Below are positions 43,975-54,356 of a stretch of 64,000 bases of DNA, piece by piece. The first letter of the stretch is position 1. Each line of letters opens with the position of its first letter. Location: positions 294 through 64,293 of the forward strand of contig JANWVM010000008.1 of the NCBI GenBank assembly GCA_025056115.1, written 5' to 3'. Under the pieces are notes generated by a model. It was not told where the DNA came from. It saw only the letters and a list, made by a program, of their open reading frames with translations, and searched no databases. The stretch comes from Gloeomargarita sp. SKYG116. GTDB lineage: Bacteria > Cyanobacteriota > Cyanobacteriia > Gloeomargaritales > Gloeomargaritaceae. The position numbers and the translations under genes are program-made.

Positions 43975-45227
43975 TGCTCAAGCCACAACCACCGCCTTTG
44001 AGTGGGCTGGATGTTTTAGAAATGGCCTGGCGCTCGCTGGGAACCCGACGACTGCGGGCGTTTTTAACCATGCTGGGGGTGGTCATTGGCATTGCCTCGG
44101 TGATTGTGGTGACTGCCGTTGGGCAAGGGGTGCAGTTGGCAACGGCGCGGGAAATTCAAAATCTGGGGACAAATTTGCTCCAGGTGCAGGGAACACCCCC
44201 CCGCGTACGGGGTATTGCGCAAGCGGGCGGCACCACCAGTACGTTGACGTGGGAAGATGCGCAAGCTGTTGCGGCCCAAGCGCCATCGGTACAATTGGTT
44301 GCCCCTTATCTGACGCGCCAACGCCAGGTTACCTACGGTACGGAAAACACCTTCACCTTGGTCAACGGGGTGGATGAGAACTTCTGGGAAGTGCGACAGT
44401 TTACAGTGGCCGCTGGGCGAGTCTTTACCCCAATGGAATTGGATACAGCCCAGTCTCTAGTCGTGCTGGGAGCGACAGTGGCGCGCGATTTGTTCGGGCA
44501 GGAGTCTCCTCTGGGCAAGTCGGTGCGCATTCAAGGAGACCGGTATGAGGTGATTGGCGTTTTAGCGCCCAAAGGGACGACAGGAGGGTTTGACCAGGAC
44601 GACCAGGTGTTTATCCCGCTCAAGAACATGGCTGCCCGCATCGTGGGACAGAATGCGCTCCAGGGGATTGCCATCAGTGGATTTTGGGTGCAGGTGCCCG
44701 ATGAATCGGAAATGGAAGCGGCCCAGTTTCAAATCACCAATCTCCTGCGCATCCGCCACAATATCTACCCGCCTCAACCCGACGACTTTCGCATCAATAA
44801 CCAAGGGGACATCATCAGCGCCTTTACCGCTATCACGGGCTTGTTAACAGTGATGGTGGGAGCAATTGCAGCCATTTCGTTGGTGGTGGGTGGTATCGGC
44901 ATTGCTAATATCATGCTGGTGTCGGTGGTAGAACGCACGCGGGAAATCGGCATTCGCAAAGCGGTAGGGGCAACTCAGGCGGCAATCTTACAACAGTTTT
45001 TAGCTGAAGCCGTGTTGGTTTCCCTGTGCGGGGGCGTCATCGGACTTTTATTGGGTGTGGCGTTGGCTTGGGGAGTGGCACAAACGTTACGCATCCCGTT
45101 TGCATTAGCGCCTTGGGCAATGGGAGTATCACTAGTGCTTTCGGCAGTCGTGGGGTTAGTCGCAGGTGTAGCGCCAGCGCAGTATGCTGCTCGCTTGGAC
45201 CCAATTGTGGCACTGCGGACGGAGTGA
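43974..45227 (+). CDS. MacB-like ABC transporter permease (FtsX domain)
   Basis: AWRSLGTRRLRAFLTMLGVVIGIASVIVVTAVGQGVQ...GGIGIANIMLVSVVERTREIGIRKAVGAT. Confidence 0.9.
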   Translation: MLKPQPPPLSGLDVLEMAWRSLGTRRLRAFLTMLGVVIGIASVIVVTAVGQGVQLATAREIQNLGTNLLQVQGTPPRVRGIAQAGGTTSTLTWEDAQAVAAQAPSVQLVAPYLTRQRQVTYGTENTFTLVNGVDENFWEVRQFTVAAGRVFTPMELDTAQSLVVLGATVARDLFGQESPLGKSVRIQGDRYEVIGVLAPKGTTGGFDQDDQVFIPLKNMAARIVGQNALQGIAISGFWVQVPDESEMEAAQFQITNLLRIRHNIYPPQPDDFRINNQGDIISAFTAITGLLTVMVGAIAAISLVVGGIGIANIMLVSVVERTREIGIRKAVGATQAAILQQFLAEAVLVSLCGGVIGLLLGVALAWGVAQTLRIPFALAPWAMGVSLVLSAVVGLVAGVAPAQYAARLDPIVALRTE

Positions 45228-45296
45228 TATTGAGGTGGACTTTCATACCCCCAGCCATTATAACTATGGGTAAACCCGTTGCTAGCGATCTCAACA

Positions 45297-47036
45297 ATGC
45301 CCGCTTCAGGACGTTGGCAATTTCTCAGGCAGTTGTTTAATCCGCTTAGCTGGCGGGGACTCGTAGTTACGGTGGCTGTAGCAGGAGGTGGCAGCTATTT
45401 CATGTACCGCCTCCATGACTACCACTGGAATGAATTAATGTTTCAGGTCCAGACAGTAGATTTTAATATCCTGAGTCACACACTACCAACTAAACTTTCC
45501 CTTGATCTACTGCGCGGCGACCTAGCGGAGCTGCAACGGACATTGGACAGCGGCTATGGTTATTTTGGGTTAGTGGTCACCGATGCAGATGGTCGCCAGA
45601 TCATCGCAATGTCCAGGAGCGAAGAACGTTGGACCAGAAATTTGCAGCTAGACCATCACCCCTACGACCTGCTGCTCGACCCGCCACCTACCCAACCCCA
45701 AAAGTTTTACACTAGCTATGCAGCCAAAGCGCCAACGCCCTATCCAGTTCAACCTCAAGGTCGTGTGATTGGCCGAGTCTATTACGTTAGGAGAGTTCCT
45801 CGTTCATTTATCGAAGATTTAGCGATATGGTCTCAGAATCCTTTTGAGCTGCGGGATGAACGTTTTCCCTACACGATAACAACCTTTAGCGCTGTACTTC
45901 TGTGGTTTATCAGTGTGATTGTTTTCAATGCCTACCACTTGAACCAGAGGTACTTACAACAGGAGAAAGAGCGCATTGAACAGGAGCGCCAACAGGTAGC
46001 AGAAACACTGGCTGAAAACCAAGAGCAGCTATCCCTCAGCCGGAATGAAACCCAAGAATTAAGAAATCTATTATCGATTAACCAAGATACAATTCAAGAA
46101 CTGAAGAACATATTGGCAACACTTGGCCACAGGAATGCCGAACTGGAAAATGTACTAGAGACGCTTAGCCGCAGAAATGCCGAACTAGAAAGGCTGATTG
46201 CGCAGAAGGAGTTTGAAGACCACACCCAGCGAGAAAAGATTTCCAGAATACTGACCCGCGAAAATAACTCGGTAGGAGAGCGCAATACCCGCATACTTTT
46301 GGCGCTGTATGAAGCAAATATTATACCACACTACAATCCCAAAGATAATCATTTAACCTCCGGCGGTGATCTGTCGCCCCTGAGAAGAGTTGCAAAACAC
46401 TTAGGCCAAAATTTTGATAAGTTGAGAAGAATCTATTGGGTGCTTAAAATTGCCTGTCAATCTAGGGACAAAAAGTTTAGTTATACATACCAAAAAAATG
46501 ATCATAAGAATTGTATAGATAACTTCCTCAGTATGCTCAAAACAAAAGGCCATATCACTGAACTCAGTCCTCTAGCCCAAGCCAGGGTTGTCAATGGCCA
46601 ATTACGTGATGAACCCGAGGTGATTAATTTTATTAACGGTGGATGGCTAGAGATATATATTTATGACTTTTTTACCAGGAATTATCGAGTGGGAGACGGC
46701 TGGTTAAAAAATCTAAAATATACACTCTTGGATGGACAACAAGGTGAGTTTGATTTGATTCACTCATTCCAAGACCAAATCAGTCGAGAAACTAAATTGA
46801 TTATTGTCGAGTGCAAGAGCGGCGACTATGCAGAGAAAATGGGTAAATATCAAAACATTTGTCGTGTTTTAGGGTTACCAGCTAAACAATTTATTATGCT
46901 AGCTGTTGAAGTCGAAGATGACCAATTAGAAAACCTTTCTCAAAAATACACTATGACCTTCGCTAATTTAAATCACCTGAAGCAAGCTTTTGAGTTGGCT
47001 ATAAGTTCAGACTCCCATGAGCGTAGAAGCGCTTAA
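45297..47036 (+). CDS. Two-TM membrane sensor with coiled coil and C-terminal Card1/DUF1887-like PD-(D/E)xK nuclease-like domain
   Basis: TM LVVTVAVAGGGSYFMY, periplasmic segment, TM FPYTITTFSAVLLWFISVIVFNAYHL, heptad coiled coil, winged-helix-like segment, then GGWLEIYIYDFF...GEFDLIHS...LIIVECKSGDYAEKMGKYQNI. Confidence 0.7.
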   Translation: MPASGRWQFLRQLFNPLSWRGLVVTVAVAGGGSYFMYRLHDYHWNELMFQVQTVDFNILSHTLPTKLSLDLLRGDLAELQRTLDSGYGYFGLVVTDADGRQIIAMSRSEERWTRNLQLDHHPYDLLLDPPPTQPQKFYTSYAAKAPTPYPVQPQGRVIGRVYYVRRVPRSFIEDLAIWSQNPFELRDERFPYTITTFSAVLLWFISVIVFNAYHLNQRYLQQEKERIEQERQQVAETLAENQEQLSLSRNETQELRNLLSINQDTIQELKNILATLGHRNAELENVLETLSRRNAELERLIAQKEFEDHTQREKISRILTRENNSVGERNTRILLALYEANIIPHYNPKDNHLTSGGDLSPLRRVAKHLGQNFDKLRRIYWVLKIACQSRDKKFSYTYQKNDHKNCIDNFLSMLKTKGHITELSPLAQARVVNGQLRDEPEVINFINGGWLEIYIYDFFTRNYRVGDGWLKNLKYTLLDGQQGEFDLIHSFQDQISRETKLIIVECKSGDYAEKMGKYQNICRVLGLPAKQFIMLAVEVEDDQLENLSQKYTMTFANLNHLKQAFELAISSDSHERRSA

Positions 47037-52070: not shown

Positions 52071-54356
52071 ATGACCCAAGCGCCTGAACGCCCGCTAGCA
52101 ACCACTGACGCTGCCTTGGAAGCCGAACTTGACCACCGGATGAGCCGCTACGGTCTGAATCCCTGCGTCACTGCCGACACCTGGGTCCAAACCGAATGGG
52201 GAGCGCGACAGGTCAAGGAACTCATCAGCCAGCCGCACGGGACGTATGTGCATGGGAAGCTGTTCCAAACGACACCGGCGGGTTTTTTCTGTAGTGGGAT
52301 GCAGCCCGTGTTTCGGCTCCACACCTGGGAGGGTTACTGCCTGCGTTTGACCGCCAACCATCCTGTGCTCAAAGTCATTCGGCAAACGACGCAACGCCAG
52401 GACTGTGCGTGGGTTGCAGCAGCGCATCTTCAGCCGGGTGACCTCATCTGCTTGCACAACCACCGGGGGATGCCGCCTTGGTCGGGCGTAGGTACCTGGG
52501 CCCAGGGCTGGTTGCTAGGCAATTTCATGGGCGATGGTTGTTTGTCGGAATACGTACCCAGTCATGGACGGCGAGGCCATTTGCGATACTGGGGCGAACA
52601 CCAAGTCATGATGGCTGAGTTTGCCCAGGCCCTTTGTCAATCGGTTTTCCCTGATTTTTCCAGCCAAATTTTACGAAATCATCCCCAGAACTGCTACAGT
52701 GAAGTAGGAAGGGCTCGTTTATTCCATCTGGCTGCATCTTACGGATTAGGTAAAGGCCGCAAAATTATTACACCAGCCATTGAACGCGCCAGTTATGAAT
52801 TCTACCAGGGCTTTCTAGGGGGATTTTTTGATGCTGATGGCAGTGTCCAAGGCGACCAGACCAAAGGGGTCAGCGTGCGGTTAGCCCACAGCGACCTGGA
52901 ACGGTTGCGGGCGGTGCAGCGCATGTTGCTCCGGTTGGGCATTGTTTCAACGCTCTCCATCAACCGGCGTCCAGCCCATACCCGTTTATTGCCTAATTCC
53001 CAACGACAACGGGTTGCCTATCCCTGTCGGGCGCAACACGAGCTGGTCATTAGCGGTGACAATTTGCAGGAGTTTCAGCGGTTGATTGGGTTTCGTGACC
53101 CTGACAAAGCAACTCGTTTAGCCACGTTACTTGAACGATACCAACGGCACCTGAACCGTGAGCGATTTACGGCAACCGTCATGGCCTTGGTTCCAGATGG
53201 TGAAGAGCTAGTTTACGACTGCTCTGTCCCAGGCGCTAATTGTTTTGATGCCAATGGGTTGGTTGTGCATAACTGCGGCGAAATTATCGGTGCTGATTTT
53301 CACTGTAACCTATCTGAAATTCACTTAAACCGGATTGATCCCCATAACTTTGAAGAGCAGGAAAAAGCCTTTACCGCTGGCGCTCTGACAGTAGCAGCCC
53401 TGTTGCACCACCGGTTTGTGGAGCCGCGTTTTCAGTACTCGCGAGAGATTGACCCGATTGTGGGGGTGTCGTTTACGGGGTTGTTTGATTTCTTTGTGCA
53501 TGCCTTTGGCAAGGAATGGCTCCAGTGGTGGGCGGCGGGACGACCCGATAGCGAGCTGGGCTTGATTTTGCGCCAGAAGGAGGCCGACTATCTCACGTTT
53601 TGGAAAGAAGTCGTGCATCGGGTGGTGTGGGATTACTGCGACCGGCATGGGTTACGGCGGCCCAATCGCTGTACGACGGTGCAACCGGCGGGTACCAAAA
53701 GTCTGCTTACAAATGCGTCGCCGGGGTGGCATCCCCCCAAAGCCCAGCGCTACATCCGTCGTATCACATTTGCCAAAAACGACCCGGTGGCCCTGGCCTG
53801 CATGGATTACGGCTATAGCGTGGTGCCAGGTCAAGCCGATAAGGACGAGCAGGGGCACTTACTCAATGACCCCTTTGACCCGCGCTGCACCGAATGGCTG
53901 GTGGAAATTCCAGTGGCGGTCTCCTGGGCGGACATTGCCGACGAGGCGGGGGTGGACATCAGTCAATTCAGCGCCCTAGCCCAATTCGATTTCTACATGA
54001 ATGTCCAGCGCCACTACACCACCCACAACACATCGGCGACGATTGAGTTCCGCGAGCATGAGATTGAGCAACTCGCCGACCGGATTTACCAGGCGATTCA
54101 GCACGATGAGGGCTATATCAGCGCCGCATTGCTGGCCCGGTTCGATGCGCTGCAAACCTTTCCCCGGTTGCCCTTTGAACCGATTAGCAAAGAACGCTAC
54201 GAAGCGCTGATGCAACAGGTGCTCCAACGACGCAAATCGGATGACTTCGGGGCGTTGTTGCGCCAGTACGACCAACCCCAGGTGCCCTTGACGCCGGAGG
54301 TGGCCGCCTGCGAAGGGATGACCTGCGAGACACCTAGCCAGCCACCAGCGACCTAG
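52071..54356 (+). CDS. nrdJ: C-terminal half of adenosylcobalamin-dependent (class II) ribonucleotide reductase containing a complete intein
   Basis: N-extein only MTQAPERPLATTDAALEAELDHRMSRYGLNP; C-extein CGEIIGADFHCNLSEIHLNRIDPHNFEEQEKAF...TVQPAGTKSLLTNASPGWHPPKAQRYIRR. In-frame TAG at 52062-52064 just upstream of the start. Confidence 0.85.
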   Translation: MTQAPERPLATTDAALEAELDHRMSRYGLNPCVTADTWVQTEWGARQVKELISQPHGTYVHGKLFQTTPAGFFCSGMQPVFRLHTWEGYCLRLTANHPVLKVIRQTTQRQDCAWVAAAHLQPGDLICLHNHRGMPPWSGVGTWAQGWLLGNFMGDGCLSEYVPSHGRRGHLRYWGEHQVMMAEFAQALCQSVFPDFSSQILRNHPQNCYSEVGRARLFHLAASYGLGKGRKIITPAIERASYEFYQGFLGGFFDADGSVQGDQTKGVSVRLAHSDLERLRAVQRMLLRLGIVSTLSINRRPAHTRLLPNSQRQRVAYPCRAQHELVISGDNLQEFQRLIGFRDPDKATRLATLLERYQRHLNRERFTATVMALVPDGEELVYDCSVPGANCFDANGLVVHNCGEIIGADFHCNLSEIHLNRIDPHNFEEQEKAFTAGALTVAALLHHRFVEPRFQYSREIDPIVGVSFTGLFDFFVHAFGKEWLQWWAAGRPDSELGLILRQKEADYLTFWKEVVHRVVWDYCDRHGLRRPNRCTTVQPAGTKSLLTNASPGWHPPKAQRYIRRITFAKNDPVALACMDYGYSVVPGQADKDEQGHLLNDPFDPRCTEWLVEIPVAVSWADIADEAGVDISQFSALAQFDFYMNVQRHYTTHNTSATIEFREHEIEQLADRIYQAIQHDEGYISAALLARFDALQTFPRLPFEPISKERYEALMQQVLQRRKSDDFGALLRQYDQPQVPLTPEVAACEGMTCETPSQPPAT
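52164..53273 (+). mobile_element. Intein with LAGLIDADG homing endonuclease domain inside nrdJ (~370 aa)
   Basis: Starts CVTADTWVQTEWGARQVKELI (block A), dodecapeptides LLGNFMGDGCL and FLGGFFDADGSV, ends CFDANGLVVHN|C (canonical His-Asn then Cys+1). Confidence 0.9.

Follow-up and report, generated by a model that had tools for sequence, protein, structure and literature searches.

Card1-type nucleases are known as cyclic-nucleotide-gated effectors of CRISPR systems. The protein studied here resembles the DUF1887 nucleases Can2/Card1 and Cdn1 in its PD-(D/E)xK module with GGW(L/F)E, ExD and ExK motifs and in the helical, wHTH-like segment that precedes it, but differs from them in lacking both a CARF domain and CRISPR linkage, in carrying a membrane sensor with a coiled coil and in scoring under the Pfam cut-off. 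VC1899, an orphan DUF1887 nuclease, is likewise found away from CRISPR and is not regulated by cA4 (PMC7969007), whereas, in contrast to our protein, it is soluble and keeps its CARF domain. On the input side, the arrangement of TM1, ectodomain, TM2 and coil is like that of sensor histidine kinases with a periplasmic PAS/Cache domain, and some members of the family described below do carry HATPase and are accompanied by a response regulator; the output here, however, is a predicted nuclease with no phosphotransfer. All of these parts are thus known, while their combination was not found in the searchable literature, of which our search had limited coverage, so that a prior listing in the 2020 CARF classification is possible.

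Here, we analysed a window of 64,000 nucleotides, the whole stretch of DNA under study, from Gloeomargarita sp. SKYG116. The focal gene is one uninterrupted frame on the forward strand (45297–47036, ATG at 45297 to TAA at 47036) encoding 579 amino acids, with the order membrane sensor, coiled coil, winged-helix-like segment and PD-(D/E)xK nuclease; an orthologous frame with 69% identity is present in a sister genome (G001; loci L002/L072). An Arg-rich, inside-facing N-terminus precedes TM1 (about residues 21–41; 45357–45419), which is followed by an extracytoplasmic domain (about residues 42–187; 45420–45857) and TM2 (about residues 188–212; 45858–45932, hydropathy 2.0). The initial annotation had proposed two membrane segments around an ectodomain of about 150 residues and a coil with an internal repeat, and this layout agrees with the peaks of family-averaged hydropathy and with the AF2 helices 16–73 and 190–257. 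The cytoplasmic coiled coil (45933–46250) contains two copies of a 14-residue unit (TLGHRNAELEN/TLSRRNAELER) that can be read directly in the sequence; at the DNA level, Tandem Repeats Finder did not detect this repeat, which is too short and diverged, and the segment matched only designed coiled coils and coil families.

The N-terminal part of about 236 residues was modelled confidently (AF2 mean pLDDT 93.6), with a long TM1 helix that reaches into the periplasmic space, then a small alpha/beta domain, and finally one long helix that combines TM2 with the coil. The two best Foldseek matches of the ectodomain were the periplasmic domain of LapD and the extracellular domain of WalK, both weak (E 0.045 and 0.048), so "PAS/Cache-like" is used here as a statement about topology rather than as proven membership. 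A sequence search of solved structures with the sensor returned no relative, and the sensor alignments show conserved ectodomain motifs, QT.DFN.L..LP...S and IGR.YY.R.

The helical, winged-helix-like segment (46251–46616) is common to DUF1887 nucleases and is also conserved with other cyanobacterial nucleases; the profile match to Cdn1 starts inside it, after the CARF domain of Cdn1. The endonuclease domain itself lies at 46617–47012. For the focal protein alone, the Pfam model Card1_endonuc gave E 1.8e-4 and 21.6 bits, below the curated cut-off of 26.4, and the scores were under this cut-off in all three members scanned, while the PADLOC CARF_PDDEXK models matched at 6e-8. A profile built from an alignment of 10 cyanobacterial relatives matched solved structures of Cdn1 (2.3e-11), Can2 (4e-10), VC1899 (3e-9) and Card1 (1.4e-8), which bears out the proposal of a Card1/DUF1887-type module. 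The motifs sit where the initial annotation had placed them (GGWLE at residue 448, GEFDL at 483, VECKSG at 504), and the Pfam, PADLOC and profile matches speak against their being there by chance.

The expected conservation of the E-D-ExK residues was also found. E452 of GGWLE (46650–46652), E484 and D486 (46746–46754) and E505 are invariant in the 10 relatives, and K507 (with E505 at 46809–46817) is kept in nine of them; in alignment numbering these are E151, E183, D185, E204 and K206. E484 and D486 are the aligned counterparts of SthCan2 E276/D278, a pair whose joint mutation leaves the enzyme inactive; E505/K507, equivalent to Card1 E308/K310, align with the ECK motif that was mutated in TsuCan2 (both in PMC7969007). 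AF2 on the nuclease half, run with a two-row alignment containing one relative, reached a pLDDT of 36, and the PD-(D/E)xK fold of the C-terminal domain is therefore a prediction from sequence.

No CARF domain was found in the focal protein by Pfam searched to E 10, the PADLOC CARF models, including CARF4, matched it only via their C-terminal parts, and the N-terminal AF2 model is not a Rossmann arrangement; the suggestion that a transmembrane sensor stands in place of CARF was thus upheld. These results bear on whether the protein could be a type III CRISPR effector that is switched on by cyclic oligoadenylate from a Cas10 encoded elsewhere in the genome. The initial annotation had seen no CRISPR array or cas gene in the window. 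In a non-exhaustive look none was noticed near the focal gene, but the absence does not extend to the genome, an assembly of 258 contigs, in which type III-B-like cas genes are present on contigs C192 and C208: Cas10/Cmr2 (6.5e-45) and Cmr4-like genes at L198:195–3227 and L199:2174–5488. These genes and the Card1-like nuclease would fit such an effector. However, the N-terminal half is a membrane sensor and, with both CARF and cas linkage missing, we rejected this reading, which we consider very improbable.

At its own locus the focal gene stands alone, between a HlyD/MacB-type pair upstream and a LytR-type gene downstream in the opposite orientation; no partner gene, no defence gene and no type III CRISPR linkage was found among these neighbours. 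Elsewhere in the window (52071–54356), a frame looks by eye like a ribonucleotide reductase at its two ends, with an apparent intein/homing-endonuclease-like insert.

CARF-less versions of this nuclease module are common among cyanobacteria, where they follow other kinds of membrane anchor. The nuclease profile had a match at E≤0.001 in 58 of the 390 class genomes; the stronger matches alone, in about 30 genomes, span most of the domain, and a TM hairpin and coil usually precede them. These TM-coil nucleases (L062, L064, L200–L210 and others) have the same nuclease and preceding segment, are membrane-anchored without CARF and resemble the PADLOC CARF_PDDEXK models; they differ from the focal protein in having a short N-terminal anchor and no ectodomain sensor. 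In two further loci (L211:2220–5495 and L216:5199–8450), the CARF-less nuclease is embedded in proteins of about 1090 aa, with SAV_2336 as the N-terminal domain and an FGE-sulfatase-like C-terminus, an architecture that resembles known cyanobacterial conflict systems.

The abundance of relatives with a simple hairpin and coil is what recommends the main rival to a gated nuclease, namely a constitutive membrane-tethered enzyme whose ectodomain only anchors it and which degrades DNA entering by phage injection, conjugation or transformation; DNA entry would also be the best-known role for placement at the membrane. A mere anchor, however, would not need the strong conservation of the sensor with its invariant ectodomain residues, and histidine kinases paired with a response regulator use the same sensor. 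We therefore regard constitutive activity as unlikely, and favour a membrane-tethered, signal-gated nuclease that is one output variant of a recombining sensor family, a reading we consider probable but not secure.

The evidence for such a family comes from the sensor profile. It detected the module in 30 of 390 cyanobacterial-class genomes (about 8%), patchily and scattered across many families, and at 76 loci of a species-level genome collection that included oxygenic cyanobacteria and Melainabacteria/Obscuribacterales; the focal protein alone gave no matches in this collection. Viral contigs and phage records contained no relatives of either the sensor or the nuclease. We found that the sensor module is an input unit carrying at least six kinds of output, including the Card1-like nuclease. 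Pfam identified NERD (1e-11), HicA (7e-14), Gp49/HigB-like (3e-10) and HATPase_c (2e-8) domains, together with a DUF2325-like output (6e-8, under the cut-off of that model), and nearly all identified outputs other than HATPase act on nucleic acids. One C-terminal domain (L131:7941–9947) had no match in Pfam or NCBIfam and represents a further output type. The focal fusion, put forward as a candidate new effector, is accordingly a real architecture, but not an isolated one. Sought in other cyanobacteria, the sensor with a Card1-like output turned up in no more than four genomes, all of the focal genus and one of them with a broken copy, which indicates that the gene is dispensable. In this copy, from genome G005 (L069:10120–10520), the gene is disrupted by a masked stretch together with a segment of about 100 bp with tatagcaat/attgctata inverted ends that resembles a small mobile element.

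HATPase-type sensor proteins were followed directly by a response-regulator gene in 8 of 8 loci, which identifies the module, at least in these proteins, as the input of a two-component system and strengthens the sensor reading of the focal N-terminus; the focal protein itself has no kinase output (DHp, HATPase) in the Pfam search. The kinase version shows that the sensor is able to drive gene regulation, and together with the winged-helix-like segment it could point to a signal-dependent DNA-binding regulator of the ToxR/CadC type, acting from the membrane with a weak or inactive nuclease fold. Such a regulator appears quite improbable to us, less so than a CRISPR effector but more so than a constitutive nuclease, since the active-site residues are conserved and most of the other outputs are nucleases or RNase toxins.

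Next to the HicA- and Gp49-type members inspected, no adjacent antitoxin-like ORF of at least 70 aa was found, so their control is presumably intraprotein. Melainabacteria sensors have a short tail, and in 35 loci the gene at the +1 position encodes a SWIM-SNF2 helicase; among L110–L156 (e.g., L132:7950–12605), the sensor without an output domain and the helicase form a conserved pair.

Closely related sensors bear different outputs, and the outputs have been exchanged. Across 53 sensors placed in a maximum-likelihood tree, with tail-only forms left out of the count (7 states), the outputs need at least 10 changes, where 6 is the minimum for 7 states. Several branches of the tree are long and single placements are unsure; the sister sensors L082 and L083 (support 100/94) carry a DUF2325-like and a NERD output, respectively. 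The focal gene itself contains a recombination mosaic. A tract at 45201–45880 shares about 93% nucleotide identity with the sister genome G001, compared with about 80% on the upstream side and about 58% on the downstream side, and the break in identity coincides with TM2. Between the focal gene and its ortholog, dS is 0.28 over codons 1–190 and saturated beyond codon 190, and the two genes upstream have dS values of 1.15 and 1.86. The simplest reading of these sequences from two genomes is that the sensor part recombined independently of the effector part, and either half may be the one that moved.

A lead on the cue comes from the Nostocales. There, the gene after NERD-type sensors encodes a lipoprotein in which Phosphonate-bd and staphylococcal nuclease domains are combined (at L100:10712–12430, Phosphonate-bd 4e-22 fused to SNase 2e-18), and an acid phosphatase gene often comes next. 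Equivalents of this lipoprotein occur at L092, L094, L095, L099, L101 and L151, with shorter open frames at L078 and L103, and the same binding-protein family is found near the HATPase-type sensors L112, L157 and L085. These genes give a hint, and only a hint because the focal locus has no such gene, that the sensed cue might be the binding protein or a nucleotide or phosphonate product, with the lipoprotein as a possible ligand partner; a search of the focal genome returned weak generic Phosphonate-bd matches only. At L158:7965–9287, the start of a sensor is fused in frame to a phosphonate-type binding protein, probably as a deletion product.

The architecture of the focal protein is well supported, and we infer dimerisation, gating, metal-dependent activity, a target and a biological role along the following lines. 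The PAS/Cache-like domain would perceive an envelope cue outside the inner membrane, and TM2 and the coiled coil would relay this signal to the cytoplasmic side. Most likely, a parallel dimer would rearrange, as happens in histidine kinases, and this would gate the nuclease in the way suggested by the kinase members. The two winged-helix-like/PD-(D/E)xK heads could then attack nucleic acids close to the membrane, with harm to the cell or to an invader as the outcome, that is, defence, altruistic death or dormancy.

The family is like polymorphic toxin systems (PMC3482391) in that exchangeable C-terminal toxin domains follow an N-terminal part that stays constant, but its members are not secreted as far as seen, the constant part is a membrane sensor, and no adjacent immunity gene is present. 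More tentatively, the sensor could mark out a class of envelope-sensing proteins in cyanobacteria, not described before, with roles in conflict or programmed death. They would resemble polymorphic toxins turned inward: one membrane receptor would have been joined by recombination to kinases, nucleases and RNase toxins and, in Nostocales, coupled to the secreted Phosphonate-bd/staphylococcal nuclease lipoprotein, possibly sensing extracellular nucleic-acid breakdown as a danger signal; this broader proposal is possible rather than probable.

If the focal nuclease is gated from the envelope, the Card1-type module would prove to be a plug-in of general use. A receptor with interchangeable two-component kinase, nuclease and RNase toxin outputs would open a direct route to the link between surface signals and self-inflicted nucleic-acid damage, and the cue becomes testable because the kinase form is a harmless reporter for the same sensor. 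Taken with its swappable outputs, the sensor suggests an envelope-triggered switch for defence or self-shutdown.
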